Assembly (NCBI GenBank): GCA_949152475.1
Contig: OX424569.1
Span: 17,893,170-17,957,169, forward strand
Source: Terebella lapidaria
Lineage: Eukaryota; Annelida; Polychaeta; Terebellida; Terebellidae
DNA length: 64,000 nucleotides
Direction of reading: 5' to 3'
Below are positions 10,386 to 46,708 of this stretch, piece by piece (the first letter of the stretch is position 1; every line of letters starts with the position of its first letter). A model generated the notes under the pieces. The model saw nothing but the letters and a program-made list of their open reading frames with translations, was not told the origin of the DNA and searched no databases. The translations under genes were made by a program, and so were the position numbers.

Positions 10386-10395
10386 CTACATATTT
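10386..10395. repeat. Left target-site duplication of LINE (unit 1)
   Basis: CTACATATTT at 10386-10395 repeats exactly at 16065-16074 and brackets the LINE. The copies in the other units are 21714-21723 with 27396-27405, and 33045-33054 with 38720-38729. Confidence 0.85.
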
Positions 10396-10583
10396 TTTTT
10401 TATATACATGTATATATATATTTATTTCGCACCACTAGTGCGCACAATACTCACATAGGTTTTTACACAAATAGACACATCAACATACAAAAAATGCACA
10501 ATATTTTCTGAAATGTACAATATCTTCCAAATTAAATCGGTTTTACATAGGTTTCAGGTCCCTCCATTTTTCTAAATACAAAT

Positions 10584-10862
10584 CTAATTCAGGTTTTTTC
10601 TTGCTGTTTCTTTTTCAATTCTACGATAATTATTGATACAATTAATAACGCCTTTTCCTAAGGGTAAACAGTTATTTAATTTGCAAGTGTAGATATATCT
10701 TTTGGCAATTAAGTATAATAAATCATAAATTGTCGTAGGGGATCGTATTTGACCTAGTAATATTTCTCTACAATTACATTCGTGAAAATCATTACCAAAT
10801 TTAGATAAAATACTATGAAATTCAAACCAAAATTTTACAACGCATTTACATTCTAAAAACAA
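10584..10862 (-). pseudogene. LINE ORF2 C-terminal tail (copy 1)
   Basis: Contains FLECKCVVKFWFEFHSIL, matching the Cys-rich tail of L1/Tx1 ORF2 proteins (pattern LF.EC..V..FW). The 92-residue frame ends at AARKNLN-like sequence just before the 3' untranslated part. It is separated from the preceding RT frame (11101-11973) by an in-frame interruption or shift. Equivalent copies are 21913-22191 and 33244-33522. Confidence 0.65.
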
Positions 10863-11100
10863 GTGTAATAATATCTCATCTTCTTTTTTTACAAAACGAA
10901 CATTTTGGCGTAACTACAATACCTATTTTAAATAGGAAGGCATTTACAGGCAAAATGTTGTGTAATAGTCTATAATGTAAATATAGTAGATTTGTTGAAA
11001 CAGTGAGAGTATATAACTTCCTAAAAAACATTACCCAGTCAGTATCCAATATGACGACATTAAAGGAATTAGACCAGAAAATTCGTGGTGTTCTTGGTAT

Positions 11101-11973
11101 TTATACAATTTTTTTCACAATGTTTGGATATACGAATTTACATACTTTATCAGCTTTTGTAATGGACGTGAGTTTATTTTCCCCCTCCAAATTTTTCGAA
11201 TCAATTCCATTGTCTTTGACCAGTATTTTCCACGATTTTGGTATTGCTGATATAACACTATAGAAATGCATAAAATTTGTTTCTATTCTGTATTGTTCTG
11301 TAAATTCGGAAAAAGTCATAAATTCACCATCTTTCAACAAATCTTCTATATATTTAACTCCTTTGACATACCAATTCGGGAAAAAAATTACTTTGTTGTT
11401 CACTCTTATGTGGGAGTTATACCAAATAAATTGATTTTTTATCTTCGAGGGTGTATCCACAATAGGTTCGAAAGAGTAGTCAAACCATGCGGTGATTACA
11501 TTTTTGATGATATCGTATTGCAATAAATTCAAAATTGAATGTATATCTCTAGTATGAAGATTACTTCCAAGAAATTCTGATATATCAATGTGGTCTGGTA
11601 TACATATTTCGAAAAATTGTTTCCATTTTCCAGGTTTATCTGTGAACAATCGTTTCACCCAGCCTATTTTCAGGGCACTATCGTGAGATGCGATGTGCGT
11701 TATTGCCAAACCTCCATAATTTCTGGTATTGTACATAACATTCCGTTTTATTTTATCCGGCTTACCGTTCCATAAAAAGGTAAATATCAAAGAATTTACA
11801 TTTTCTATATAAGTTGCCGTAGGAGTGGGCAATACTGATAACAAAAAGGTCAGTTTGGACATCAAAAGTGATTTAATAATTATACTTTTTCCAAATAACG
11901 TCAAATCTCTTTGTTTCCATATATTAATGAGCATATCCATTTTGTTCAGTATTGGTCCAAAGTTCAACAGCAT
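11101..11973 (-). pseudogene. LINE ORF2, RT thumb and downstream region (copy 1)
   Basis: A 290-residue open stretch. The segment WKQRDLTLFGKSIIIKSLLM, followed by FTFLWNGKPDKIKR and NYGGLAITHI, is the conserved region after the RT core in L1/Tx1 elements. The start codon shown by the frame is internal, so this is a piece of ORF2 rather than a separate gene. Copies at 22430-23302 and 33761-34633 differ by N to K in the segment RVNNKVIFF. Confidence 0.75.
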
Positions 11974-12267
11974 TAGGTCTTCATGAATCGGAGTTATTTA
12001 ACCCCTAAGTATTGGACAGGTTCTGAAGTCCAATTCACACCTAGCGATGGACAAACATTGCTCAACATATGTCTATTGGAGCCAAATGGCAATACATACG
12101 TTTTGTTCGTATTGATTTTCAAACCAGATATTTTCTGAAACTCAGCAAAATCTTTAAACAAATGTCCGATGGAATATTCACAATAATGTATTGTTAAAGC
12201 AGTATCATCAGCCTATTGGCTGATTTTATGTTCTGTGTTCCCGATTTGTATCCCTCTGATGTCTGGA

Positions 12268-13026
12268 TTACCCCTTATCCGAGCAGATAATATTTCTACA
12301 CATATGATGAATAAATATGGAGATAGTGGACATCCTTGTCGCATTCCTCTGCCAAGTTTGAAAAAAGAAGAATACCGGCCATTGTTGAGTATACAATACT
12401 AATATGTAATCCAAGCGCGTGAAAACAGGATAAGGTGGTTGTGTGTGGAAGGTAAATATTTTTTTCGATGGGTGTTTTTTTCTGTATGTGTCCAAAATGT
12501 CAAAATCTTCCATATAGTTTTGCGTAACTGTCCTGGCCTTTATGTTGGCATGATCAGATCTACCACCTTGTTTATCTAGAATGGGATTCAGTATATGATT
12601 AAAATCGCCGCATATAATGCGATTGTCATTGGGAATATTTTCAATAAGCTCATATAAATTGCAGAAAAAAGCTGGACTGTCGTGGTTTGGACCATATATG
12701 TTAGCTAACGTAATCCTTTTTTCATCAATGGTAATATCAAGGATGACAAATCGGCCCTTTGGATCTATAAATTTATCATGTATTTCTTTGTTGCACCTGG
12801 GGTTAAATAAAATCATCACTCCTTGAGCATTGGATTTTCCATGAGAAAATATTATGTCTCCCTGAAAATCATTTTTCCACGTATTTTCACTATCGGCTGT
12901 TGAGTGGCTTTCTTGTATGCATATAATGTCATATTTATGTTCTCGAATCCATTCAAATACTTTTTGCCGTTTATTTTTGGATTGCAATCCCCTGACGTTC
13001 TTGGTGACGATCCCAATACTATCCAT
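12268..13026 (-). pseudogene. LINE ORF2 endonuclease, joined to an RT remnant (copy 1)
   Basis: Residues 1-210 are an AP-like endonuclease: Asn10 in TKNVRGL, Glu39 in CIQES, Tyr111/Asn113 in NIYGPN, Asp141/Asn143 in GDFN and Asp206 in RLDYILV. The terminal SDH histidine motif is absent, because sequence jumps at about 12397 to the RT core ([20 protein letters not shown], then [13 protein letters not shown]) read in another frame. In family members the two are separated by some 250-300 residues, so about 0.8 kb is missing. Copies 2 and 3 (23597-24355, 34928-35686) keep W in NNGWYSSFF where this copy has R. Confidence 0.8.
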
Positions 13027-13366
13027 TTTGACTATATATCTGAGATATGTTTCCTATATAATCTGCAGAATTAATTATACCAATGAAGGTATGATTATAC
13101 GGATTGGCAGATATAATGAATGACCTTGAATATTCGTCATTGGTATTTGTGTGCATATCAGAAATTGATTCAGTTTTGCACAAAGGTATGCAATTTTCAA
13201 ACAAAATACAATTGAACACAACAATAAACAAAAGACCTATAGACAACCTCAGCGACATAAACACTGGTGCTTTATGCACTGAAAGCTCGGAGTAATGGGA
13301 ACCTCCGATAACAAGACAGAGTATCGAGAGTAGAACAGACAATCGGACTCCGCTATCACATGACAT
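13019..13366 (-). CDS. 115-aa ORF in LINE, two hydrophobic segments, function unknown
   Basis: ATG at 13366. Hydrophobic stretches are LSVLLSILCLVIGG near the N-terminus and LLFIVVFNCILF near residue 50. The ORF ends by overlapping the endonuclease ORF by 8 nt (stop TAG inside ATGGATAG). It stays open in all three copies (24348-24695 and 35679-36026) with L to R and A to S changes, but those copies are too young to show selection. I do not recognise a family. It may be chance coding in the ORF1-ORF2 spacer. Confidence 0.3.
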   Translation of the reverse strand: MSCDSGVRLSVLLSILCLVIGGSHYSELSVHKAPVFMSLRLSIGLLFIVVFNCILFENCIPLCKTESISDMHTNTNDEYSRSFIISANPYNHTFIGIINSADYIGNISQIYSQNG

Positions 13367-14752
13367 TGTGCCGGAGTTCCGTATACTGGTACGATACGAT
13401 GTTCATGGTGCTTTAACCCACTTAATTTCAGGAAAGGTGTATACTAAATGTACATAGACCTTTGGCTTGATATGCTCGGTAGCGCGTGCAGAACATATTT
13501 ACATGTATGAGAGGTTCACGTCCCCACTGCCATAGCTAGTCGCCTAAGAAGTGAAACCTTGGGCTTATGACATTGATGACCTTGTGAACATACGTACATA
13601 TCACGTACATGTATGTAGGTTAGCTTGGAGCACCAGTTTCCCGGGCGAAAGTAACATTGAGAATGATACAAGCACATGGAAGCGTGAAATTCCGTGTTTC
13701 CCCCCCCCCCCCCCGAAAAAAAAAATCAGATCCAGCTAAAAGTTGCCCCCTATTTCTCAGACCTGGGCACGTTCGAATACAATACACAAAAGGCATAAGT
13801 TTCACCGAAGTGATGTAAATGAAACACGAACGTAAGTTTTTCTGAATCAGAAAGTATTGAGGTGCCCCCATACACGGAATTTATCGACATGCATGTTTAA
13901 CGCAGAATACATCCATGATAGCAACCTGGATACAGCAGCCAATAGTGTCTATGGACTGGAGTATGATTGCATTTGGCATTAATTTGTGAAACAAAAAGGT
14001 TCACACTTCGATTGAGCCACGATCGCAGGCCTCGTGCTTTGATTTTTCTCAGACGTTTGTGTATACATGATAATAGCGAGACGAAAATCATCGGCAAGGT
14101 GTATATCAGAACCACTTTATTTTTTATAAAGGTATGTGTTGAACCCCATAGGCATACGAGATAACATTATAAATGCAACCACAAGTCAGCATCTGTGGAA
14201 AGCTATTTATTTTTTATCGATATTCTGCTTACTATATCTTATTAGTTTTTGATCAGATGTAGATCTATCACCAGAGATGACCTCTGGTTCAAAAAGTACT
14301 TCGTGGTACATAGCAATATACTGAAACATTTGACAATTATCGTCCAAGACAGACATCTGAACACTTTTATTATCTAAATAGAGTATCACAACACCCCAAA
14401 CACCATAGACAGAAACCTCCTTATGCTGTAACTGCATACTGATATATGTGGACTGGTGTATATAACCATTTTCTGAATTTATGCCTGTATGACTGTGGCA
14501 TATATGTAAAAGGCAGATTGTTCACGTTTTGTACTTTGTCCCGCGACGATCGCAAACCCATTTTTCATGAACGTATGTACATAAACTCCATTGTATAATT
14601 AAGCTGTAGCAAGACCAAACGGTAGCTAATTCAGAAGTTACATTGGTGTAGATAGTAAGTACTATAAGTTTGATATGCTGGTACCATGGAAAACCAGAGC
14701 AACAGTATGGTTAGTCTGCTTCAAGGTAAACGAACATAACCAGTCCAACAAT
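13367..14752 (-). other. LINE internal spacer without recognised coding (copy 1)
   Basis: About 1.4 kb between the Pro-rich part of ORF1 and the ORF2 region. Frames are short. A C15/A10 tract at 13700-13725 varies between units (C18 at 25029-25046, C14 at 36360-36373). An inter-ORF spacer this long is unusual, so an older insertion nested here is possible, though I see no terminal repeats. Confidence 0.5.
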
Positions 14753-15238
14753 TCACACCATAGAAATGCTAGTTGAAGGTACAGTTCCTGGCTCCTCGTG
14801 GGAACTAGGCATTCCTGTTGGCGTCGCCATAACTCCCTGGGACCTCGGAGTGAAGATGGGATACAGCGAAGTCAGACGAGCAGCGGTGGTAGGGTTGGGA
14901 GGATGCGATGTGGAGAGGTGAAGGTCAGACGGGTTTGCCATCGACTGAGACGATGGAGCAACATCAGCCGGTTTGACCATCGACGGAGGCAGAGCAGCAA
15001 CATCAGCAGGGTTGGTCATCAATGGGGGCGGAAGAGCAAAATCAGCAGGGTTGGCCATCGACAGAGGCGGAGGTACAACGTCAGCAGGGTTGGAAGGATG
15101 CGGAGTGGAGTGGCGAGGACCAGACGAGATGACCATGGGCAGGACTTGGGGCGCAGCAGCCGCAGCACTTGCTGGAAGCGGGATAGAGTGACCACAATCA
15201 GGCGGACTGACCAGTATTGCCTGTTGGGGTAGCCGCAA
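14753..15238 (-). pseudogene. LINE ORF1-associated Pro/Ala-rich repeat region (copy 1)
   Basis: A 161-residue frame with a 13-residue (39-bp) tandem repeat of the form NPADVxPPPxSMx, about four copies (DNA about 14940-15095). The repeat period is a multiple of three and the peptide repeat is clean only in this frame, which favours former coding. The frame is offset by one from the IMPACT-containing ORF and overlaps its end, so the two are not one open frame here. Copies are 26084-26569 and 37411-37896. Confidence 0.45.
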
Positions 15239-16058
15239 CGGAGGACATCTCCAGGTTGCAACTTAGGTTTGATTTCGTTGAATTGTTTTTCGTCAGGGAC
15301 ACATTTAAAGCCGCTTTTGTGCAATGTCTGATTATGTCAAAACGCCTTGGGCCAAGTTCATTTCCGCTGAACCAACGAGATACCACCACTACCTGGTTAC
15401 TGATGTTAGACCGCTGTAGTTCCTGTAGTATTGACCTAGCTCCTCCATATTCATCATCGTCCTCGCAAAAATCTACGAGATCCCCATTCTGAAAGATTCG
15501 TGCTGCGAACATGTTATGCGTAGCTGTGCTCAATCCACGGTTGTTTGTGTGTTTTATAGCGCTAACTGCCATGGATATTTCAACTGGGCTTGTCACACTG
15601 GCGATATGTGCAACGAATCTATTGCCTTTTTCCGTGACCGCTTGTGAGGAAGCAATGTTCATCAAGTGAGTATTCGCAATAATGTCTGACACCGATATTG
15701 TGCACGGTGGAATTGATGGAGCCACATATTTTCGTCCATCTACAACCACAGCATCCCCCTTACCGACAAACTTGGGTTTCTTCCCTTCTTTTTTTGCTAG
15801 GTTGAAGATATGGCCAACAAGTTTTTTTTTTTCCGAAAGGTTAGGGGGGAGTTGACTACTGATGAAATATTTCGTTCCGGCCAGGTGTTTTGCTTGAGAG
15901 AGGATATGATCTTTCCCTTGGACGAAAACGGCTACGATTGGGCGAGAGGAATCACGTCCTGCGTTACCAAAACGGTGGCACCTAGCGATCCAGACACGAT
16001 TGGGGTCCACTAACTGATCATCGCCAGGCGGGACGAGGCAGGATCGAAGGACTTTCAA
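15198..16058 (-). CDS. LINE ORF1 (5'-truncated) fused to IMPACT/YigZ-like domain (copy 1)
   Basis: An open frame of 286 residues whose first codon (TTG) is only the truncation edge; target-site sequence with a stop lies immediately upstream. Residues about 20-115 match the RRM/C-terminal region of L1-type ORF1 proteins: VWIARCHRFG, RPIVAVF, LAGTKYFISSQLP and VVVDGRKYV. Residues about 135-265 match the IMPACT/YigZ (UPF0029) domain: RFVAHIASVTSPVE, ATHNMFAARI, FCEDDDEYGGARSIL and VVVVSRWFSGNELGPRRF. Cellular IMPACT has an RWD domain in front and acts on Gcn1/Gcn2 translational control; here the partner is a retrotransposon RNA-binding protein. The frame is open in all three units (286, 286, 285 residues, differing in a Lys run). 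The role in the element is unknown. Confidence 0.78.
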   Translation of the reverse strand: MKVLRSCLVPPGDDQLVDPNRVWIARCHRFGNAGRDSSRPIVAVFVQGKDHILSQAKHLAGTKYFISSQLPPNLSEKKKLVGHIFNLAKKEGKKPKFVGKGDAVVVDGRKYVAPSIPPCTISVSDIIANTHLMNIASSQAVTEKGNRFVAHIASVTSPVEISMAVSAIKHTNNRGLSTATHNMFAARIFQNGDLVDFCEDDDEYGGARSILQELQRSNISNQVVVVSRWFSGNELGPRRFDIIRHCTKAALNVSLTKNNSTKSNLSCNLEMSSVAATPTGNTGQSA

Positions 16059-16064
16059 CTGATC

Positions 16065-16074
16065 CTACATATTT
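16065..16074. repeat. Right target-site duplication of LINE (unit 1)
   Basis: CTACATATTT, identical to 10386-10395. From about 16080 the sequence again aligns with the gene 5 upstream region (45112 onward), which places the LINE boundary here. Confidence 0.85.
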
Positions 16075-21723: not shown

Positions 21724-24700
21724 TTTTTTTATATACATGTATATATATATTTATTTCGCACCACTAGTGCGCACAATACTCATATAGGTTTTTACACAAA
21801 TAGACACATCAACATACAAAAAATGCACAATATTTTCTGAAATGTACAATATCTTCCAAATTAAATCGGTTTTACATAGGTTTCAGGTCCCTCCATTTTT
21901 CTAAATACAAATCTAATTCAGGTTTTTTCTTGCTGTTTCTTTTTCAATTCTACGATAATTATTGATACAATTAATAACGCCTTTTCCTAAGGGTAAACAG
22001 TTATTTAATTTGCAAGTGTAGATATATCTTTTGGCAATTAAGTATAATAAATCATAAATTGTCGTAGGGGATCGTATTTGACCTAGTAATATTTCTCTAC
22101 AATTACATTCGTGAAAATCATTACCAAATTTAGATAAAATACTATGAAATTCAAACCAAAATTTTACAACGCATTTACATTCTAAAAACAAGTGTAATAA
22201 TATCTCATCTTCTTTTTTTACAAAACGAACATTTTGGCGTAACTACAATACCTATTTTAAATAGGAAGGCATTTACAGGCAAAATGTTGTGTAATAGTCT
22301 ATAATGTAAATATAGTAGATTTGTTGAAACAGTGAGAGTATATAACTTCCTAAAAAACATTACCCAGTCAGTATCCAATATGACGACATTAAAGGAATTA
22401 GACCAGAAAATTCGTGGTGTTCTTGGTATTTATACAATTTTTTTCACAATGTTTGGATATACGAATTTACATACTTTATCAGCTTTTGTAATGGACGTGA
22501 GTTTATTTTCCCCCTCCAAATTTTTCGAATCAATTCCATTGTCTTTGACCAGTATTTTCCACGATTTTGGTATTGCTGATATAACACTATAGAAATGCAT
22601 AAAATTTGTTTCTATTCTGTATTGTTCTGTAAATTCGGAAAAAGTCATAAATTCACCATCTTTCAACAAATCTTCTATATATTTAACTCCTTTGACATAC
22701 CAATTCGGGAAAAAAATTACTTTTTTGTTCACTCTTATGTGGGAGTTATACCAAATAAATTGATTTTTTATCTTCGAGGGTGTATCCACAATAGGTTCGA
22801 AAGAGTAGTCAAACCATGCGGTGATTACATTTTTGATGATATCGTATTGCAATAAATTCAAAATTGAATGTATATCTCTAGTATGAAGATTACTTCCAAG
22901 AAATTCTGATATATCAATGTGGTCTGGTATACATATTTCGAAAAATTGTTTCCATTTTCCAGGTTTATCTGTGAACAATCGTTTCACCCAGCCTATTTTC
23001 AGGGCACTATCGTGAGATGCGATGTGCGTTATTGCCAAACCTCCATAATTTCTGGTATTGTACATAACATTCCGTTTTATTTTATCCGGCTTACCGTTCC
23101 ATAAAAAGGTAAATATCAAAGAATTTACATTTTCTATATAAGTTGCCGTAGGAGTGGGCAATACTGATAACAAAAAGGTCAGTTTGGACATCAAAAGTGA
23201 TTTAATAATTATACTTTTTCCAAATAACGTCAAATCTCTTTGTTTCCATATATTAATGAGCATATCCATTTTGTTCAGTATTGGTCCAAAGTTCAACAGC
23301 ATTAGGTCTTCATGAATCGGAGTTATTTAACCCCTAAGTATTGGACAGGTTCTGAAGTCCAATTCACACCTAGCGATGGACAAACATTGCTCAACATATG
23401 TCTATTGGAGCCAAATGGCAATACATACGTTTTGTTCGTATTGATTTTCAAACCAGATATTTTCTGAAACTCAGCAAAATCTTTAAACAAATGTCCGATG
23501 GAATATTCACAATAATGTATTGTTAAAGCAGTATCATCAGCCTATTGGCTGATTTTATGTTCTGTGTTCCCGATTTGTATCCCTCTGATGTCTGGATTAC
23601 CCCTTATCCGAGCAGATAATATTTCTACACATATGATGAATAAATATGGAGATAGTGGACATCCTTGTCGCATTCCTCTGCCAAGTTTGAAAAAAGAAGA
23701 ATACCAGCCATTGTTGAGTATACAATACTAATATGTAATCCAAGCGCGTGAAAACAGGATAAGGTGGTTGTGTGTGGAAGGTAAATATTTTTTTCGATGG
23801 GTGTTTTTTTCTGTATGTGTCCAAAATGTCAAAATCTTCCATATAGTTTTGCGTAACTGTCCTGGCCTTTATGTTGGCATGATCAGATCTACCACCTTGT
23901 TTATCTAGAATGGGATTCAGTATATGATTAAAATCGCCGCATATAATGCGATTGTCATTGGGAATATTTTCAATAAGCTCATATAAATTGCAGAAAAAAG
24001 CTGGACTGTCGTGGTTTGGACCATATATGTTAGCTAACGTAATCCTTTTTTCATCAATGGTAATATCAAGGATGACAAATCGGCCCTTTGGATCTATAAA
24101 TTTATCATGTATTTCTTTGTTGCACCTGGGGTTAAATAAAATCATCACTCCTTGAGCATTGGATTTTCCATGAGAAAATATTATGTCTCCCTGAAAATCA
24201 TTTTTCCACGTATTTTCACTATCGGCTGTTGAGTGGCTTTCTTGTATGCATATAATGTCATATTTATGTTCTCGAATCCATTCAAATACTTTTTGCCGTT
24301 TATTTTTGGATTGCAATCCCCTGACGTTCTTGGTGACGATCCCAATACTATCCATTTTGACTATATATCTGAGATATGTTTCCTATATAATCTGCAGAAT
24401 TAATTATACCAATGAAGGTATGATTATACGGATTGGAAGATATAATGAATGACCTTGAATATTCGTCATTGGTATTTGTGTGCATATCAGAAATTGATTC
24501 AGTTTTGCACAAAGGTATGCAATTTTCAAACAAAATACAATTGAACACAACAATAAACAAACGACCTATAGACAACCTCAGCGACATAAACACTGGTGCT
24601 TTATGCACTGAAAGCTCGGAGTAATGGGAACCTCCGATAACAAGACAGAGTATCGAGAGTAGAACAGACAATCGGACTCCGCTATCACATGACATTGTGC

Positions 24701-27395
24701 CGGAGTTCCGTATACTGGTACGATACGATGTTCATGGTGCTTTAACCCACTTAATTTCAGGAAAGGTGTATACTAAATGTACATAGACCTTTGGCTTGAT
24801 ATGCTCGGTAGCGCGTGCAGAACATATTTACATGTATGAGAGGTTCACGTCCCCACTGCCATAGCTAGTCGCCTAAGAAGTGAAACCTTGGGCTTATGAC
24901 ATTGATGACCTTGTGAACATACGTACATATCACGTACATGTATGTAGGTTAGCTTGGAGCACCAGTTTCCCGGGCGAAAGTAACATTGAGAATGATACAA
25001 GCACATGGAAGCGTGAAATTCCGTGTTTCCCCCCCCCCCCCCCCCCAAAAAAAAAATCAGATCCAGCTAAAAGTTGCCCCCTATTTCTCAGACCTGGGCA
25101 CGTTCGAATACAATACACAAAAGGCATAAGTTTCACCGAAGTGATGTAAATGAAACACGAACGTAAGTTTTTCTGAATCAGAAAGTATTGAGGTGCCCCC
25201 ATACACGGAATTTATCGACATGCATGTTTAACGCAGAATACATCCATGATAGCAACCTGGATACAGCAGCCAATAGTGTCTATGGACTGGAGTATGATTG
25301 CATTTGGCATTAATTTGTGAAACAAAAAGGTTCACACTTCGATTGAGCCACGATCGCAGGCCTCGTGCTTTGATTTTTCTCAGACGTTTGTGTATACATG
25401 ATAATAGCGAGACGAAAATCATCGGCAAGGTGTATATCAGAACCACTTTATTTTTTATAAAGGTATGTGTTGAACCCCATAGGCATACGAGATAACATTA
25501 TAAATGCAACCACAAGTCAGCATCTGTGGAAAGCTATTTATTTTTTATCGATATTCTGCTTACTATATCTTATTAGTTTTTGATCAGATGTAGATCTATC
25601 ACCAGAGATGACCTCTGGTTCAAAAAGTACTTCGTGGTACATAGCAATATACTGAAACATTTGACAATTATCGTCCAAGACAGACATCTGAACACTTTTA
25701 TTATCTAAATAGAGTATCACAACACCCCAAACACCATAGACAGAAACCTCCTTATGCTGTAACTGCATACTGATATATGTGGACTGGTGTATATAACCAT
25801 TTTCTGAATTTATGCCTGTATGACTGTGGCATATATGTAAAAGGCAGATTGTTCACGTTTTGTACTTTGTCCCGCGACGATCGCAAACCCATTTTTCATG
25901 AACGTATGTACATAAACTCCATTGTATAATTAAGCTGTAGCAAGACCAAACGGTAGCTAATTCAGAAGTTACATTGGTGTAGATAGTAAGTACTATAAGT
26001 TTGATATGCTGGTACCATGGAAAACCAGAGCAACAGTATGGTTAGTCTGCTTCAAGGTAAACGAACATAACCAGTCCAACAATTCACACCATAGAAATGC
26101 TAGTTGAAGGTACAGTTCCTGGCTCCTCGTGGGAACTAGGCATTCCTGTTGGCGTCGCCATAACTCCCTGGGACCTCGGAGTGAAGATGGGATACAGCGA
26201 AGTCAGACGAGCAGCGGCGGTAGGGTTGGGAGGATGCGATGTGGAGAGGTGAAGGTCAGACGGGTTTGCCATCGACTGAGACGATGGAGCAACATCAGCC
26301 GGTTTGACCATCGACGGAGGCAGAGCAGCAACATCAGCAGGGTTGGTCATCAATGGGGGCGGAAGAGCAAAATCAGCAGGGTTGGCCATCGACAGAGGCG
26401 GAGGTACAACGTCAGCAGGGTTGGAAGGATGCGGAGTGGAGTGGCGAGGACCAGACGAGATGACCATGGGCAGGACTTGGGGCGCAGCAGCCGCAGCACT
26501 TGCTGGAAGCGGGATAGAGTGACCACAATCAGGCGGACTGACCAGTATTGCCTGTTGGGGTAGCCGCAACGGAGGACATCTCCAGGTTGCAACTTAGGTT
26601 TGATTTCGTTGAATTGTTTTTCGTCAGGGACACATTTAAAGCCGCTTTTGTGCAATGTCTGATTATGTCAAAACGCCTTGGGCCAAGTTCATTTCCGCTG
26701 AACCAACGAGATACCACCACTACCTGGTTACTGATGTTAGACCGCTGTAGTTCCTGTAGTATTGACCTAGCTCCTCCATATTCATCATCGTCCTCGCAAA
26801 AATCTACGAGATCCCCATTCTGAAAGATTCGTGCTGCGAACATGTTATGCGTAGCTGTGCTCAATCCACGGTTGTTTGTGTGTTTTATAGCGCTAACTGC
26901 CATGGATATTTCAACTGGGCTTGTCACACTGGCGATATGTGCAACGAATCTATTGCCTTTTTCCGTGACCGCTTGTGAGGAAGCAATGTTCATCAAGTGA
27001 GTATTCGCAATAATGTCTGACACCGATATTGTGCACGGTGGAATTGATGGAGCCACATATTTTTGTCCATCTACAACCACAGCATCCCCCTTACCGACAA
27101 ACTTGGGTTTCCTCCCTTCTTTTTTTGCTAGGTTGAAGATATGGCCAACAAGTTTTTTTTTTTCCGAAAGGTTAGGGGGGAGTTGACTACTGATGAAATA
27201 TTTCGTTCCGGCCAGGTGTTTTGCTTGAGAGAGGATATGATCTTTCCCTTGGACGAAAACGGCTACGATTGGGCGAGAGGAATCACGTCCTGCGTTACCA
27301 AAACGGTGGCACCTAGCGATCCAGACACGATTGGGGTCCACTAACTGATCATCGCCAGGCGGGACGAGGCAGGATCGAAGGACTTTCAACTGATC
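21724..27395 (-). mobile_element. LINE (L1/Tx1-type), copy 2
   Basis: The unit 2 copy of the same insertion (5672 bp), carried along by the tandem duplication and not a separate transposition: target-site duplications (21714-21723, 27396-27405), 5' truncation point, internal deletion and the TAG in place of the YADD tyrosine (near 23542-23544) are all shared with copy 1. Confidence 0.88.
26529..27389 (-). CDS. LINE ORF1 + IMPACT-like domain (copy 2)
   Basis: A 286-residue open frame equivalent to 15198-16058. Differences from copy 1 include K to R in KKEGRKPKF and R to Q in VDGQKYV. IMPACT landmarks ATHNMFAARI, DDDEYGGARSIL and SRWFSGNELGPRRF are unchanged. Confidence 0.78.
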   Translation of the reverse strand: MKVLRSCLVPPGDDQLVDPNRVWIARCHRFGNAGRDSSRPIVAVFVQGKDHILSQAKHLAGTKYFISSQLPPNLSEKKKLVGHIFNLAKKEGRKPKFVGKGDAVVVDGQKYVAPSIPPCTISVSDIIANTHLMNIASSQAVTEKGNRFVAHIASVTSPVEISMAVSAIKHTNNRGLSTATHNMFAARIFQNGDLVDFCEDDDEYGGARSILQELQRSNISNQVVVVSRWFSGNELGPRRFDIIRHCTKAALNVSLTKNNSTKSNLSCNLEMSSVAATPTGNTGQSA

Positions 27396-33054: not shown

Positions 33055-36000
33055 TTTTTTTATATACATGTATATATATATTTATTTCGCACCACTAGTG
33101 CGCACAATACTCATATAGGTTTTTACACAAATAGACACATCAACATACAAAAAATGCACAATATTTTCTGAAATGTACAATATCTTCCAAATTAAATCGG
33201 TTTTACATAGGTTTCAGGTCCCTCCATTTTTCTAAATACAAATCTAATTCAGGTTTTTTCTTGCTGTTTCTTTTTCAATTCTACGATAATTATTGATACA
33301 ATTAATAACGCCTTTTCCTAAGGGTAAACAGTTATTTAATTTGCAAGTGTAGATATATCTTTTGGCAATTAAGTATAATAAATCATAAATTGTCGTAGGG
33401 GATCGTATTTGACCTAGTAATATTTCTCTACAATTACATTCGTGAAAATCATTACCAAATTTAGATAAAATACTATGAAATTCAAACCAAAATTTTACAA
33501 CGCATTTACATTCTAAAAACAAGTGTAATAATATCTCATCTTCTTTTTTTACAAAACGAACATTTTGGCGTAACTACAATACCTATTTTAAATAGGAAGG
33601 CATTTACAGGCAAAATGTTGTGTAATAGTCTATAATGTAAATATAGTAGATTTGTTGAAACAGTGAGAGTATATAACTTCCTAAAAAACATTACCCAGTC
33701 AGTATCCAATATGACGACATTAAAGGAATTAGACCAGAAAATTCGTGGTGTTCTTGGTATTTATACAATTTTTTTCACAATGTTTGGATATACGAATTTA
33801 CATACTTTATCAGCTTTTGTAATGGACGTGAGTTTATTTTCCCCCTCCAAATTTTTCGAATCAATTCCATTGTCTTTGACCAGTATTTTCCACGATTTTG
33901 GTATTGCTGATATAACACTATAGAAATGCATAAAATTTGTTTCTATTCTGTATTGTTCTGTAAATTCGGAAAAAGTCATAAATTCACCATCTTTCAACAA
34001 ATCTTCTATATATTTAACTCCTTTGACATACCAATTCGGGAAAAAAATTACTTTTTTGTTCACTCTTATGTGGGAGTTATACCAAATAAATTGATTTTTT
34101 ATCTTCGAGGGTGTATCCACAATAGGTTCGAAAGAGTAGTCAAACCATGCGGTGATTACATTTTTGATGATATCGTATTGCAATAAATTCAAAATTGAAT
34201 GTATATCTCTAGTATGAAGATTACTTCCAAGAAATTCTGATATATCAATGTGGTCTGGTATACATATTTCGAAAAATTGTTTCCATTTTCCAGGTTTATC
34301 TGTGAACAATCGTTTCACCCAGCCTATTTTCAGGGCACTATCGTGAGATGCGATGTGCGTTATTGCCAAACCTCCATAATTTCTGGTATTGTACATAACA
34401 TTCCGTTTTATTTTATCCGGCTTACCGTTCCATAAAAAGGTAAATATCAAAGAATTTACATTTTCTATATAAGTTGCCGTAGGAGTGGGCAATACTGATA
34501 ACAAAAAGGTCAGTTTGGACATCAAAAGTGATTTAATAATTATACTTTTTCCAAATAACGTCAAATCTCTTTGTTTCCATATATTAATGAGCATATCCAT
34601 TTTGTTCAGTATTGGTCCAAAGTTCAACAGCATTAGGTCTTCATGAATCGGAGTTATTTAACCCCTAAGTATTGGACAGGTTCTGAAGTCCAATTCACAC
34701 CTAGCGATGGACAAACATTGCTCAACATATGTCTATTGGAGCCAAATGGCAATACATACGTTTTGTTCGTATTGATTTTCAAACCAGATATTTTCTGAAA
34801 CTCAGCAAAATCTTTAAACAAATGTCCGATGGAATATTCACAATAATGTATTGTTAAAGCAGTATCATCAGCCTATTGGCTGATTTTATGTTCTGTGTTC
34901 CCGATTTGTATCCCTCTGATGTCTGGATTACCCCTTATCCGAGCAGATAATATTTCTACACATATGATGAATAAATATGGAGATAGTGGACATCCTTGTC
35001 GCATTCCTCTGCCAAGTTTGAAAAAAGAAGAATACCAGCCATTGTTGAGTATACAATACTAATATGTAATCCAAGCGCGTGAAAACAGGATAAGGTGGTT
35101 GTGTGTGGAAGGTAAATATTTTTTTCGATGGGTGTTTTTTTCTGTATGTGTCCAAAATGTCAAAATCTTCCATATAGTTTTGCGTAACTGTCCTGGCCTT
35201 TATGTTGGCATGATCAGATCTACCACCTTGTTTATCTAGAATGGGATTCAGTATATGATTAAAATCGCCGCATATAATGCGATTGTCATTGGGAATATTT
35301 TCAATAAGCTCATATAAATTGCAGAAAAAAGCTGGACTGTCGTGGTTTGGACCATATATGTTAGCTAACGTAATCCTTTTTTCATCAATGGTAATATCAA
35401 GGATGACAAATCGGCCCTTTGGATCTATAAATTTATCATGTATTTCTTTGTTGCACCTGGGGTTAAATAAAATCATCACTCCTTGAGCATTGGATTTTCC
35501 ATGAGAAAATATTATGTCTCCCTGAAAATCATTTTTCCACGTATTTTCACTATCGGCTGTTGAGTGGCTTTCTTGTATGCATATAATGTCATATTTATGT
35601 TCTCGAATCCATTCAAATACTTTTTGCCGTTTATTTTTGGATTGCAATCCCCTGACGTTCTTGGTGACGATCCCAATACTATCCATTTTGACTATATATC
35701 TGAGATATGTTTCCTATATAATCTGCAGAATTAATTATACCAATGAAGGTATGATTATACGGATTGGAAGATATAATGAATGACCTTGAATATTCGTCAT
35801 TGGTATTTGTGTGCATATCAGAAATTGATTCAGTTTTGCACAAAGGTATGCAATTTTCAAACAAAATACAATTGAACACAACAATAAACAAACGACCTAT
35901 AGACAACCTCAGCGACATAAACACTGGTGCTTTATGCACTGAAAGCTCGGAGTAATGGGAACCTCCGATAACAAGACAGAGTATCGAGAGTAGAACAGAC

Positions 36001-38719
36001 AATCGGACTCCGCTATCACATGACATTGTGCCGGAGTTCCGTATACTGGTACGATACGATGTTCATGGTGCTTTAACCCACTTAATTTCAGGAAAGGTGT
36101 ATACTAAATGTACATAGACCTTTGGCTTGATATGCTCGGTAGCGCGTGCAGAACATATTTACATGTATGAGAGGTTCACGTCCCCACTGCCATAGCTAGT
36201 CGCCTAAGAAGTGAAACCTTGGGCTTATGACATTGATGACCTTGTGAACATACGTACATATCACGTACATGTATGTAGGTTAGCTTGGAGCACCAGTTTC
36301 CCGGGCGAAAGTAACATTGAGAATGATACAAGCACATGGAAGCGTGAAATTCCGTGTTTCCCCCCCCCCCCCCAAAAAAAAAATCAGATCCAGCTAAAAG
36401 TTGCCCCCTATTTCTCAGACCTGGGCACGTTCGAATACAATACACAAAAGGCATAAGTTTCACCGAAGTGATGTAAATGAAACACGAACGTAAGTTTTTC
36501 TGAATCAGAAAGTATTGAGGTGCCCCCATACACGGAAGTTATCGACATGCATGTTTAACGCAGAATACATCCATGATAGCAACCTGGATACAGCAGCCAA
36601 TAGTGTCTATGGACTGGAGTATGATTGCATTTGGCATTAATTTGTGAAACAAAAAGGTTCACACTTCGATTGAGCCACGATCGCAGGCCTCGTGCTTTGA
36701 TTTTTCTCAGACGTTTGTGTATACATGATAATAGCGAGACGAAAATCATCGGCAAGGTGTATATCAGAACCACTTTATTTTTTATAAAGGTATGTGTTGA
36801 ACCCCATAGGCATACGAGATAACATTATAAATGCAACCACAAGTCAGCATCTGTGGAAAGCTATTTATTTTTTATCGATATTCTGCTTACTATATCTTAT
36901 TAGTTTTTGATCAGATGTAGATCTATCACCAGAGATGACCTCTGGTTCAAAAAGTACTTCGTGGTACATAGCAATATACTGAAACATTTGACAATTATCG
37001 TCCAAGACAGACATCTGAACACTTTTATTATCTAAATAGAGTATCACAACACCCCAAACACCATAGACAGAAACCTCCTTATGCTGTAACTGCATACTGA
37101 TATATGTGGACTGGTGTATATAACCATTTTCTGAATTTATGCCTGTATGACTGTGGCATATATGTAAAAGGCAGATTGTTCACGTTTTGTACTTTGTCCC
37201 GCGACGATCGCAAACCCATTTTTCATGAACGTATGTACATAAACTCCATTGTATAATTAAGCTGTAGCAAGACCAAACGGTAGCTAATTCAGAAGTTACA
37301 TTGGTGTAGATAGTAAGTACTATAAGTTTGATATGCTGGTACCATGGAAAACCAGAGCAACAGTATGGTTAGTCTGCTTCAAGGTAAACGAACATAACCA
37401 GTCCAACAATTCACACCATAGAAATGCTAGTTGAAGGTACAGTTCCTGGCTCCTCGTGGGAACTAGGCATTCCTGTTGGCGTCGCCATAACTCCCTGGGA
37501 CCTCGGAGTGAAGATGGGATACAGCGAAGTCAGACGAGCAGCGGCGGTAGGGTTGGGAGGATGCGATGTGGAGAGGTGAAGGTCAGACGGGTTTGCCATC
37601 GACTGAGACGATGGAGCAACATCAGCCGGTTTGACCATCGACGGAGGCAGAGCAGCAACATCAGCAGGGTTGGTCATCAATGGGGGCGGAAGAGCAAAAT
37701 CAGCAGGGTTGGCCATCGACAGAGGCGGAGGTACAACGTCAGCAGGGTTGGAAGGATGCGGAGTGGAGTGGCGAGGACCAGACGAGATGACCATGGGCAG
37801 GACTTGGGGCGCAGCAGCCGCAGCACTTGCTGGAAGCGGGATAGAGTGACCACAATCAGGCGGACTGACCAGTATTGCCTGTTGGGGTAGCCGCAACGGA
37901 GGACATCTCCAGGTTGCAACTTAGGTTTGATTTCGTTGAATTGTTTTTCGTCAGGGACACATTTAAAGCCGCTTTTGTGCAATGTCTGATTATGTCAAAA
38001 CGCCTTGGGCCAAGTTCATTTCCGCTGAACCAACGAGATACCACCACTACCTGGTTACTGATGTTAGACCGCTGTAGTTCCTGTAGTATTGACCTAGCTC
38101 CTCCATATTCATCATCGTCCTCGCAAAAATCTACGAGATCCCCATTCTGAAAGATTCGTGCTGCGAACATGTTATGCGTAGCTGTGCTCAATCCACGGTT
38201 GTTTGTGTGTTTTATAGCGCTAACTGCCATGGATATTTCAACTGGGCTTGTCACACTGGCGATATGTGCAACGAATCTATTGCCTTTTTCCGTGACCGCT
38301 TGTGAGGAAGCAATGTTCATCAAGTGAGTATTCGCAATAATGTCTGACACCGATATTGTGCACGGTGGAATTGATGGAGCCACATATTTTTGTCCATCTA
38401 CAACCACAGCATCCCCCTTACCGACAAACTTGGGTTTCCTCCCTTCTTTTTTTGCTAGGTTGAAGATATGACCAACAAGTTTTTTTTCCGAAAGGTTAGG
38501 GGGGAGTTGACTACTGATGAAATATTTCGTTCCGGCCAGGTGTTTTGCTTGAGAGAGGATATGATCTTTCCCTTGGACGAAAACGGCTACGATTGGGCGA
38601 GAGGAATCACGTCCTGCGTTACCAAAACGGTGGCACCTAGCGATCCAGACACGATTGGGGTCCACTAACTGATCATCGCCAGGCGGGACGAGGCAGGATC
38701 GAAGGACTTTCAACTGATC
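33055..38719 (-). mobile_element. LINE (L1/Tx1-type), copy 3
   Basis: The unit 3 copy (5665 bp), between CTACATATTT at 33045-33054 and 38720-38729. Same truncation, deletion and TAG as copies 1 and 2. The length differs mainly by shorter C and A tracts. Confidence 0.88.
37856..38713 (-). CDS. LINE ORF1 + IMPACT-like domain (copy 3)
   Basis: A 285-residue frame equivalent to copies 1 and 2, one Lys shorter in the NLSEKK run because of an A-tract change that keeps the frame. The IMPACT domain is identical to copy 2. Confidence 0.78.
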   Translation of the reverse strand: MKVLRSCLVPPGDDQLVDPNRVWIARCHRFGNAGRDSSRPIVAVFVQGKDHILSQAKHLAGTKYFISSQLPPNLSEKKLVGHIFNLAKKEGRKPKFVGKGDAVVVDGQKYVAPSIPPCTISVSDIIANTHLMNIASSQAVTEKGNRFVAHIASVTSPVEISMAVSAIKHTNNRGLSTATHNMFAARIFQNGDLVDFCEDDDEYGGARSILQELQRSNISNQVVVVSRWFSGNELGPRRFDIIRHCTKAALNVSLTKNNSTKSNLSCNLEMSSVAATPTGNTGQSA

Positions 38720-42125: not shown

Positions 42126-45100
42126 AGCATTGATTTATTCTGGTGGCACGACTCTTGGAGGAACTTCTCTGGAGAATTTTTCAAAATTCTCAGTATTCAG
42201 ACACGACGTCTGGGAATGTCTCGAAATTGTATAGGGTTGTACTCATTATCGCCAAATAATCGACTGTTTAATACATGTCCAAAGCGGTGTGTAATTTTGG
42301 TTTGACAGACTGTTGATATGATATCACTAATGTTATAATGTCACTATAGAGTTTCTAAATATGGAAAGTAGTTGCTGCTTGCAAATGAAATATTATACTG
42401 TAGGCTACATCTCATCCTTTATATAATGAAATACACATCAATGTATTTCAATCACCGTTTTATTTCAACAACAAATTCTCTGAAACGAATTCAGTTATCA
42501 TTGTACATGTATAAAAAACTTGGAAAAACACATCAACGAAATATATATTCAAGATCAGGCACAAGAGACGATGAACCTCTGGTCCTGGAAGAAAAATACG
42601 CCAACACTCAATTTAGTAATTTTCCAACATTACAATTATATATGATTTTTTGTTAACAGAATGGCTGTGTCCAACATTACCACGTTACTATGTTATACTC
42701 CATGAATCCGTCTAATTCTCAACAGACATATGACTCAATTATCAGATAGGCAGACTGTAATTACTGTCACCCCGAGTGGCCCATTGAATCAGCTACAGTA
42801 ATAGTGCAAAGCTGTACGTGAACCCGTGTTCTGCCTAAAATTACCGAGATAAAATCTCGACAGCAGCACTATTCAAGGAGGTGCAAATGAGTACATCTTG
42901 CAACACATAACTGATGCTATTTGTGATCTGTAGATGTACAAATTCACCCCATTTGTTAGATGAAATTATAAAATCGAGCTTATTAAAATCTGACTATAAT
43001 AAGTCGTCATACATATCATGTTTGCAATGCCTGAAATCGTTATTGATCAAGCAACTATTACGGAGGATAACTTGAGGAGAAGGGCAATTTTAAAGCACTC
43101 GGCACGATCTGAAGCTAAATTATGAATATGAATTTGAAATCCAATTCTGTTGTGTATCAAATCACGACTTGATTATAAATGAAACTCTCAAGATCAGTAA
43201 TTATTAAGATTGTCAACTACTAGTGGAAGTTTCTCATAGCATTACCCCAGTAACCTCTTGTCTAATGATATACTAGTACGTATTTTTGTTCCTTGACATG
43301 CACATTCCAATGGTTGCTGCTATCCATTGTTGAGTGGTGGCATACCTTTTCCATCAAGTGTTCATCGATTTAGAAACAACTTTTCCACACGTACACCTTT
43401 GATGGTGACTGGGCGGCTATTGATATACACTCGGTCACACTTGTGGTTGAGTCGAATTATACAGAAAATCGCGTTTTACTGGTGTCAATAACTATTGTTA
43501 TATTAGAGGCAGAAGTTTTTAGTAGGTCTACAGGATTGACACTGATCAAATACTACTCCTCATGGGTCTATAGGTTAGAGACTGTATACATATGTACTTG
43601 TTTTTGTTTATTTCCTTGGATTCGAATTTCAAATTTTTAATTGATTGTTACGTAAGTTAGCATTATTCAAGCATATGTACAGGGGATCTACAATTTAACT
43701 ATGTTCACACACGGTCTCACTGTTGAGGTAATACTGGCTTTAAATTGCATTGTATTCAAGGGATCTGCCGTCTGTCAAAGTTATGTTCTACCTGATGTGA
43801 TAGGTAGATACATACATCACAAATTAACTTCCTCATGAGCCTGCCAGTGCCAATTATTGGCAGCTAGACATCAGCAACCCTGGGACCTGGTAGATCTAGA
43901 TCCATAACTCCCAGGCTCACATTTACAGTCCCGTGGAAGCGATTATCACAGAGACACATGGTATTTGCAAGTCCAAAGCTGTCATAAATGTCGCAATAGT
44001 TTATTGCAGCTTCATCAACTTCTGGAGAGTAAGATTACTGTTACAGCGTGATTACAAGCCCCTGGCTTCTCACAATACACGTGAGTGGTGGTTTCCCACA
44101 TTGCAAAAATACATTCGAATTATTATTTCATTAGTAGCAGTATTATTATTGATGCACACCAAACATTTCATAAAAGATAGTGTCAAATTGCAAATGTGCA
44201 AGAATTTTTTCAGAAAATGCATTCAACTGCTTGACATGACATTGATATTACATTAATATGACAAGTCGAATGGGTGGCGCCCCTAGTGAGTAAATTGTGC
44301 AAACAACCGCTTGTGGTCTATGCATTGAATATTTCTTATTTATATAGCATGTCATCACTTGTCATGCCGTTTATTAGTGTACAAATGATTCATGTACAAA
44401 TGAAATCAGTTTTGACCTGTTAGATGTGAGTATCATCCGATTCCCGCCAATACAACACCATTCGCTGATACCAATAGATAACCGGAAACAATATTAAAAA
44501 AATAAATAAAAACAAAGGCTGACCAAATAGTCCCATCCGGAGTCACACTGGCTTCATTGAAGTCTGACCGTTGTACAATATATATAGGCTATTGTATGCA
44601 TGATATTATTGTATTTGTCGCGTGAGAAATTATACTATATACCATACTACACAGAAATTATGAATTAACCATTTCATTCCTTTACTATTTCATTTGATTC
44701 CCAATTGGACATATGACGAAATCCCACAGCAAATACAATATTCTGCATCATTTGTTTGAGAGAGTATTTATCAACATATTTGCTCATTGAATGCTACTAG
44801 TATGTTGATAATGCCATCGCATCATATGTGTTCGGTGGTAATGACATTTCAAATAACATATCAAGACCGAACGCTTCATTCGACTCAATATTCATGAGAA
44901 AGAGACGGGCTGTACCAAGCTCAGACCGACTTCATAAAGGTACCCGCTGCTCAGCTGTTTGTTTGTTCCATGGACATGAACTGTTATCAATACAAAAGTA
45001 TATGTCACAATCGATTTTCGATGCAAATATGCAACATCTCAGGTGGGACTGTATATTTAGCTGTGTGTTTAAAGAACTGAGTCGTCAATAGCAACTACAA

Positions 45101-45345
45101 GTTTCCTGTTAGCCTGGCGATTCTTTGGCATGGGTGAGCTCTGCCAGTGCGTGCGCAACGAATCTTGTCAATCAATGATAACCCATTGGCCACCGTTTGG
45201 ACCTGTTGGGTTGACTTTGTTTTACATATTTGATTGACAAATGGGATATGGAATGTACAACGGTGAATGTGTCTTATCTAAAGCTTATGGCTCCTGAACA
45301 CAAGTTGTCGTTGTGTCCTCTGTAATGTAAACGTGTGATATCAAA
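42126..45345. other. Gene 4 to gene 5 intergenic region, LINE-free paralogue of the array spacer
   Basis: Aligns with 8106-10385 through numerous substitutions and indels. It carries about 650 bp of extra sequence at 44150-44815, then resumes at 44840-45100 (GGTAATGACATTTCAAATAA, ctcaggtggga, gagtcgtcaatagcaactac). It passes at about 45100-45113 directly into sequence that in the array lies right of the LINE. No gene recognised. Confidence 0.65.
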
Positions 45346-46708
45346 ATGGAAACCAGTCTAACTTTGGCTGCATTTCTCTGTTTGTTGACGCTTGTGAATG
45401 GAAACGATCGCCGTTTTCACGAGGAATTTGGTCATGATGTTAGATGTAACCGACCAGTTCTAGAAAGTGTGATAAAAGCTTCTAAGTTACAGTGTGCAGC
45501 TGAGTGTAAGAAACTCTACTATTGTGGTGGATTCAACCACCAGCTGCTGACCAATGGGAGGAGCGAATGTGATTTACTGCAGGGTCTCTGTGATGCCTCA
45601 GACATCGTGATGCAGATTGGAGCTGTGTACTACGAGCGCACTGACTACGGTGAGAAACTTCCACGGTCCCAGACAAACAACTGTGTAACAGTATTGTGAA
45701 GCAGCTTTTCGATTAAGTCATCATCACTAAATGGGTGATAATTTTTTGCTTGTCTATTTTAATAAACATAACTCACGAACTCAATGTCAGAAAAAAATAT
45801 GAGATAGATCATAACCTATATATCCCAACTATAGATATTTCTAAATTCTATAGAAATTTAATGTATATATCTTGCTTTGTCGACTACTGATGGAACCAAA
45901 AACGATTTGGAAAGATCTACCATCTGGTTTCAATTGAGTAACGCAAAATGAGTAAAATGCGGACATTCAAAGTTCCATTCGCATCTTTAGTACATATTTA
46001 TCGTAAATATATGAATACTTTGACACTAATTACAAATTTGAATATAATTGATATATATTACTAAGTAAAAATTTAATTTCATGTTATGACAGAATCAACG
46101 TAATTTCCATAGCCGTCAATGCATTTGTGTGTTAAAACCATGTACATTTCACTGTGAACAAGACTACAAAATTTGTCATACTTTCAAAACTGAAGTATAG
46201 ATTTTGTTTTATTGTCATATTTTGTAGAAATTTATTCTGATATTCGAGCAGGTTCCTGAAAAAGTGCTATACAAAAATTCACATTATTATTATTATAGTG
46301 ATGATATGAATTGATCGGACATACCCCATCAGTCAGGTGCAGACATACCCCATGATGTCGTGCCTTACTTAGTAACACCACAAATGTATCTGGATTCATT
46401 TCTATGGGCCTGGGTGTCCAATGTAGGTTTGGTGGTTGGGTTGGGATGACGTGAAGCTGAAATAATAATAAAATGAAATACAGGATTTTCCTTATTAAAG
46501 AATAGTTTAAGAAGATGAAGCTAAAATGATAATAAAATGAAATACAGGCTTTACCTTATTAAACTATAATTTAGGAAGATGAAGCTAAACTGATAAAAAA
46601 ATGAAACCCAGGCTTTTCCTTATTGAACTATAGTTTAAGAAGATGATGCGAGTCATACTTACCCCATGGGGTAAGTGCGACCAAAGTCGGACATACCCCA
46701 ATCTTTAC

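Follow-up and report, generated by a model that had tools for sequence, protein, structure and literature searches.

An IMPACT/UPF0029 domain in the ORF1 proteins of several LINE lineages of an annelid, and its putative role as an effector

How does a domain of the IMPACT family come to stand in a retrotransposon protein, and what would the element do with it? The question is raised by a frame of 286 residues that runs without interruption at 15198..16058, on the minus strand, of the window (the whole stretch of 64,000 nucleotides that was analysed). Its start is a TTG directly after a stop codon. The first-pass annotation had described a LINE ORF1 protein joined in a single frame to an IMPACT/UPF0029 domain, and had named a UPF0029 search as the check. 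The description is borne out: UPF0029 (Pfam PF01205) matches the C-terminal part of the frame, residues 145-251 (window 15306..15626, minus strand), with an E value of 8.7e-22 and 77.6 bits against a cut-off of 27. The match covers model positions 2-107 of 107, that is, the whole domain, and all 10 full ORF1s scanned likewise score above the curated cut-off. Among solved structures, the best match of the frame is PDB 6bqi, 'Protein IMPACT homolog' (E 1.3e-12). The YigZ-specific NCBIfam model IMPACT_YIGZ (TIGR00257) gives an E value of 6.6e-8 and 32.3 bits against a cut-off of 167.95, which places the frame outside that family. A structure prediction had also been expected to display the IMPACT fold; AlphaFold, run on the single sequence of the window frame, returned a mean pLDDT of 37, too low to inform on the fold either way.

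Based on homology to L009 (a locus on contig C1), on its flanks and on a shared 10-bp word, the LINE insertion around this frame occupies 10396..16064 on the minus strand. It comprises a 5′-truncated ORF1-IMPACT remnant, a spacer, an endonuclease (EN) part and a remnant of ORF2 with the reverse transcriptase (RT) deleted. The homology runs with gaps from window position 16065 down to 11267, and at ~12396-12398 the window copy lacks about 1.3 kb of the RT region seen in L009. The frame with the EN part (12268..13026, minus strand; PF03372, E 3.1e-12) crosses the junction of this deletion, while the C-terminal remnant of ORF2 (11101..11973, minus strand), recognised by homology to L009, has no Pfam RT match. 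A 161-aa frame with a Pro-rich segment (14753..15238, minus strand) is frameshifted in the window; in L009 it lies in frame at the ORF1 C-terminus, within an ORF1 frame of 573 aa. The word CTACATATTT adjoins both the 5′ end of the LINE (16065..16074) and its 3′ end (10386..10395), where a T-run, the minus-strand A-rich tail, follows; we take it, as the longest word common to both ends, for the probable target-site duplication. The flanks align with a LINE-less repeat unit near 45072-45111. By its sequence, the window copy is a dead, 5′-truncated insertion with a 10-bp target-site duplication, and the idea of a complete element at this place has to be given up.

The same frame had been reported twice more in the window. 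Both frames are present on the minus strand, at 26529..27389 and 37856..38713, in LINEs that lie, by offset, at about 21725-27395 and about 33056-38719. As the frame list and the repeat spacing indicate, they are tandem duplicates, and they add neither further LINE insertions nor evidence of repetition. We rejected the three copies as independent insertions: an 11.33-kb segment is tandemly triplicated, with spacings of 11331 and 11324. All three copies have DDDE at a site where the other 20 L1-type rows and the 11 CR1-type rows compared have DDGE, as L009 also has in the ORF1 alignment, and from this they appear decayed.

The array itself extends over window 4088-45693, with a unit of about 11.33 kb and more diverged partial units at both ends. 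Each unit also carries a short PAN-like protein gene, for which the Pfam PAN match is under cut-off. A diverged copy of this gene at 45346-45699 has no PAN match.

All LINE evidence reported here comes from one genome, the window's own (761.6 Mb in 438 contigs). Contig C438, of 15,973 bases, is mitochondrial; translated with TGA as W and AGA as S, as in the invertebrate mitochondrial code, its COX1 is an open frame. The first-pass reading called for further LINE copies with the domain elsewhere in the genome, and these were found. A search of the whole genome yielded at least 137 matches out of 484 candidates, of which 136 were scored. Identity ranges from 27 to 100%; the matches lie on contigs C1 to C17 and C320, and many have open ORF1 frames of 430-573 aa. 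With the PF01205 model, 150 of 381 candidates were scored and all 150 lie above the cut-off, so that the genome has at least 150 matches.

From these we retrieved 20 loci of about 10 kb, selected for long frames and for diversity. An ORF1 frame of 453-573 aa is present in all 20, as the selection demanded, and an ORF2 frame of 1197-1379 aa in 7; in the other 13, ORF2 is broken or runs off the ~10-kb piece. Each of the six ORF2s scanned has both EN and RVT_1 and lies near its ORF1, as befits a LINE. Human L1 ORF2p is matched by the ORF2 of L012 along 888 residues (E 7.2e-102).

Some of these elements are young. L015 on contig C14 and L016 on contig C16 are 99.5% identical over an alignment of 8085 bases, and each has an intact ORF1 frame of 505 residues, an intact ORF2 frame of 1264 residues and a 3′ run of A. 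Their target-site duplications differ, being 12 bp in one and up to 15 bp in the other. A clear duplication with an A-tail was seen in these 2 of the 8 loci tried; in the other 6 the 3′ end was undefined by alignment and no clear duplication was seen. Judged from these copies, this genome shows that LINEs with IMPACT in ORF1 have moved recently.

Searches of viral contig and prokaryotic genome collections for relatives of the ORF1-IMPACT protein returned no LINE relatives. Among the best 80 of 354 prokaryotic loci, all with bacterial titles, the IMPACT profile matches 80 and the ORF1 middle-region profile none. In molluscs, many database entries bear the name 'Impact N-terminal domain-containing protein', and these may be such elements.

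An alignment of 16 ORF1s defines the architecture of the protein. A coiled-coil-like N-terminal part is followed by a basic middle region with motifs of the RSMKNNLVF and RCHRFG...RPIVAVF types, to which IMPACT is directly joined; some families have an extra tail. Of 29 invariant columns, IMPACT accounts for 14 (A, H, R, DDGE, R-W and G among them), the middle region for 13 and the coiled-coil part for 2. Neither Pfam (window frame and 10 ORF1s) nor the solved L1 ORF1p RNA-binding domain gives a significant sequence match to the middle region. The L1-type RNA-binding label first given to it is thus a resemblance by eye only, and for the same reason 'RRM-CTD' is here a working label only. We identify the protein as ORF1 because it stands upstream of an EN-RT ORF2, because full-length copies have the coiled-coil-like N-terminus and because it is conserved among copies. 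The N-terminal RWD domain that marks cellular IMPACT/YIH1 proteins has no match in the ORF1s scanned: 10 full ORF1s give none at E up to 1, and a set of 5 and one of 4 ORF1s none at E up to 0.01.

The family signature is well kept. Motifs of the A-x-H, DDGE and R-W/Y/F-x-G-G types are present in 21, 20 and 20 of the 21 L1-type rows, respectively, and each in all 11 CR1-type rows, which represent 9 loci, two being entered twice; near-copies are included in both sets. The two L1-type exceptions are the window row, with DDDE, and L027, which lacks the third motif.

Substitution rates point the same way. When the three regions of ORF1 are compared in 14 diverged pairs, dN is lowest for IMPACT in 13; in the remaining pair, L013-L014, the coiled coil is lower. 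These pairs have sequences in common and are hence non-independent, and dS is saturated in most comparisons. Where dS could be estimated (4 of the 14 pairs), dN/dS of IMPACT is about 0.09-0.13, a rough value since dS exceeds 2. Four near-identical ORF1 pairs carry no information on dN/dS. Low dN against high or saturated dS indicates that the domain is under constraint in LINE ORF1s. Such strong conservation, together with intact copies that moved recently, suggests that the elements use the domain.

Is the domain confined to one kind of LINE? The best eight PF01205 matches (L029-L036) lack the L1-type middle region. In all five of them that were scanned, an SGNH/GDSL esterase (PF13472) is found with E 1.3e-7 or better; three of the five exceed the cut-off, and L030 and L034 score 32.7 against a cut-off of 32.9. 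IMPACT precedes the esterase in L029, L030 and L035 and follows it in L033 and L034. PHD-like matches occur only in L029/L117 and L033/L118, with E values between 1.9e-5 and 8.1e-5, none of them reaching its curated cut-off; by eye, some of the esterase-bearing ORF1s also have coiled-coil and zinc-knuckle segments. Longer pieces reveal EN and RT downstream of ORF1 in L117 and L118, and in L119 a match to RT alone. We call these elements 'CR1-type', a working label taken from ORF1 architecture. Kapitonov and Jurka reportedly described, in 2003, CR1/L2-like LINEs whose ORF1 has a PHD or an esterase. Yet another arrangement is found in L120 (contig C14), where an ORF1 of 907 aa has IMPACT in mid-protein and EN and RT lie in separate frames. 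The tail of this ORF1 looks SGNH-like by eye, with no Pfam match, and its RT falls near but outside the L1 group.

Also among the best eight matches, L032 has a minus-strand frame of 188 aa with a divergent IMPACT-like sequence that has neither the DDGE nor the RW signature (LDGDYG) and resembles, by eye, the divergent L125 described below.

In a tree of 24 RT rows, human L1 included, the L1-like group (group A) joins human L1 with support of 100/99 and has L120 as its neighbour (97/97). All other lineages fall on the opposite side (97/97), with L020-L026 (91/84) separate from L027, L128 and L117-L119 (94/93). L014 and L028 have no usable RT, and since Tx1, CR1, L2 and RTE reference rows are not among the 24, we assign no finer clade. 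With this qualification, the sequences show IMPACT to be present in the ORF1s of several RT lineages as well as in esterase-bearing ORF1s.

ORF1 and RT may not always tell the same story. For L020 and L021 (contigs C3 and C8), the tree test rejects an RT that groups with the L1-like elements (p 2.3e-6, or p 0.0026 if human L1 is added). Their RT sits with group B and their ORF1 beside group A, and a place of ORF1 with the other set is not rejected (p 0.36, L027 included). A mosaic of ORF1 and ORF2 is possible in these two elements. The RT of L027 stands beside L128, an element with NADAR (94/87), and its placement with group B is rejected (p 0.023). In L027, the ORF1 and RT frames are some kilobases apart and their putative linkage comes from a single copy.

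The tree of the domain itself, with 41 IMPACT rows of which 8 are bacterial, admits both one capture with later spread and several captures: a single clade of all LINE IMPACTs is not rejected (p-AU 0.25), and neither is a single clade of the L1-type ones (p-AU 0.16). An earlier tree had 21 bacterial rows, namely every fourth of the 80 prokaryotic loci and one solved structure. We also looked for the host IMPACT gene through PF05773, which gave 7 matches; in L121, the one examined, no IMPACT motifs were seen by eye in 2.5 kb.

Next to IMPACT, we found a second domain in the same position. A search of the genome with the middle region of L024 gave at least 157 matches from 596 candidates (150 scored). 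Eighteen of these loci were picked for being absent from the IMPACT match lists, and 6 of the 18 were examined. At the C-terminal slot that IMPACT fills in their relatives, 5 of these 6 have NADAR (L122, L123, L124, L126 and L127) and one, L125, a divergent IMPACT. NADAR (PF08719) was identified by Pfam in four of the five, with E values of 9.6e-28 to 9.9e-34, and in L127 by a profile built locally from these sequences. An EN and RT frame lies downstream of L124 (the row L128 of the RT tree). Across the genome, 150 NADAR matches were scored of 973 candidates and all 150 are over the cut-off, hence at least 150 in total; their ORF1 context was established for the slot loci.

The divergent IMPACT of L125 reaches 32.6 bits against the cut-off of 27 and is joined to a LINE ORF1 middle region. 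It falls outside the motif row set and lacks DDGE, which is replaced by DSDGDYG, as well as the RW signature. With one of the six slot relatives having lost it, the DDGE signature is not always kept.

What might the domain do? We infer that in several LINE families the IMPACT/UPF0029 domain is a functional addition to the ORF1 protein, an effector borne on the ribonucleoprotein, and on balance we consider this reading probable. ORF1p would multimerise via its coiled coil and bind LINE RNA through its middle region, and the IMPACT domain would be displayed on the resulting particle. There it would most likely bind a conserved protein or a small ligand, plausibly at the ribosome, and help LINE RNA to be translated or protected, instead of contributing bulk RNA binding. 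Partial text of a 2015 study calls the function and partners of this ancient domain elusive and places its invariant motifs in loops on one side (PMC4503747). The LINE versions keep these loop motifs and have a charge near neutral, which makes binding of a protein or small ligand the most likely mode. Net charge has a median of +9 for the middle region vs +1 for IMPACT in 20 ORF1s. With wider bounds the median of IMPACT is +3 in L1-type, 0 in CR1-type and +4 in bacterial sequences, and since +3 is close to +4, charge says little that is special to LINE IMPACTs.

A doubtful, though the best surviving, alternative, which goes back to the first-pass annotation, is that the domain mimics cellular IMPACT: it would compete with Gcn2 for Gcn1 and damp eIF2alpha phosphorylation, and LINE RNA would stay translated. 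Precedent exists, as overexpressed Yih1 inhibits Gcn2 through competition for Gcn1, and Yih1 and IMPACT bind Gcn1, ribosomes and actin, the partner of the ancient domain itself being unknown to the authors in the text available (PMC4503747). According to the same partial text, the parts of Yih1 that suffice to bind Gcn1, actin and ribosomes overlap with the linker that connects RWD to the ancient domain (PMC4503747), and the ORF1s scanned have no RWD match. Moreover, bacterial YigZ has the domain and bacteria, as is generally known, have no Gcn1. Since the ORF1s scanned have no RWD match, it is more likely that the LINEs employ the conserved surface of the ancient domain itself than that they copy the Yih1 mechanism directly.

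It is unlikely, in our view, that IMPACT is a structural or generic nucleic-acid-binding addition which solely packages LINE RNA. Its direct junction with the basic middle region would fit such a role, as would the RNA binding that is expected of ORF1p from general knowledge of L1. That the domain is so close to neutral (median charge +1, or +3 when its bounds are widened) weakens this plain nucleic-acid-binding role, which had been among the first suggestions for the locus. Furthermore, the conserved residues are the signature of the family and not basic patches, and esterase-bearing ORF1s place IMPACT in different surroundings, before the esterase or after it. With no RWD match in the ORF1s scanned and a near-neutral charge, GCN1 mimicry and plain RNA binding are both conjecture.

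That the domain is a passive hitch-hiker, fused once by chance and functionless, we regard as very improbable. The window copy, being dead, would agree with it. Low dN with high or saturated dS, a dN below that of both other ORF1 regions in 13 of the 14 pairs, the intact recent copies and the presence of the domain in several RT lineages and ORF1 positions all argue against it; a single capture is compatible with the IMPACT tree, yet a lack of function is unlikely. Lastly, a chimera or assembly artefact at this locus, to which the three near-identical window copies in one tandem array might point, has a negligible probability in view of the interspersed copies on C1 to C17 and C320, two of them with target-site duplications and intact ORFs.

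Returning to the effector reading, the finding that related ORF1s have NADAR in the place of IMPACT suggests that this position is a general slot, open to domains which protect the RNA of the element, or its translation, against the host. NADAR is a family of guanine de-ADP-ribosylases, which take ADP-ribose off guanine (PMC11543638, partial text). Tentatively, and as a possibility that we would not yet bet on, we propose an exchangeable 'effector slot' behind or beside the RNA-binding part of ORF1, filled here by IMPACT or NADAR and with the esterase as a companion in other lineages. The domains in it might serve the ribonucleoprotein against host control: NADAR could remove ADP-ribose from LINE guanines, and IMPACT could keep a stress or defence response away from LINE-bearing ribosomes. 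If true, the slot would be the site of an arms race, in this case non-viral, over translation and the modification of nucleic acids.

A constrained IMPACT domain in mobile elements, across several LINE lineages and ORF1 contexts, offers a new handle on the role of this ancient domain, because here it must serve a particle of RNA and protein that undergoes both translation and reverse transcription. Together with NADAR, it also hints at anti-host functions carried by ORF1. The domains described for LINE ORF1 in the text available of Metcalfe and Casane 2014 (PMC4120745) are RRM, CTD, zinc knuckle, PHD and esterase, in types that include type II, PHD and esterase, and IMPACT and NADAR would be two additions to them. 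The esterase class is described by Schneider et al. 2013 (PMC3905857, partial text). Among the open-paper titles and starts of abstracts listed, none describes IMPACT/UPF0029 in a retrotransposon; an earlier mention is possible, for example in Repbase reports. Neither PMC4120745 nor PMC3905857 has the word 'impact' anywhere in its main text; 'retrotranspos' is likewise absent from PMC11543638, and 'NADAR' from PMC5408684, PMC9115989 and PMC10294476.

How do these elements compare with known systems? Like the type II ORF1 of human L1, the IMPACT ORF1s have a coiled-coil-like N-terminus and a conserved basic middle region, and among solved structures the ORF2 of the L1-like group is closest to human L1 ORF2p. 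They differ from it by the IMPACT or NADAR added at or near the C-terminus and by having no significant match to the solved RRM and CTD. With the type III/IV ORF1s of CR1- and L2-like LINEs, as described in parts of PMC4120745 and PMC3905857, the CR1-type elements share the SGNH/GDSL esterase (5 of 5), PHD-like matches below the cut-off (2 of 5) and, by eye, zinc knuckles in some; the difference is the IMPACT domain before or after the esterase in the elements of this genome. Cellular IMPACT and YIH1 have the same UPF0029 domain with motifs of the A-x-H, DDGE and R-W-x-G-G types, whereas the LINE versions have no RWD match and are fused to a retrotransposon ORF1. YigZ and other short bacterial IMPACT proteins also share UPF0029, but with other partners, and the window frame is far below the YigZ-specific cut-off. 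Finally, the LTR retrotransposons of bdelloid rotifers (PMC5408684, partial text) resemble these LINEs as retroelements that capture and share enzyme-like domains in extra ORFs, although the domains there are a GDSL esterase and a DEDDy exonuclease and the elements belong to another class.
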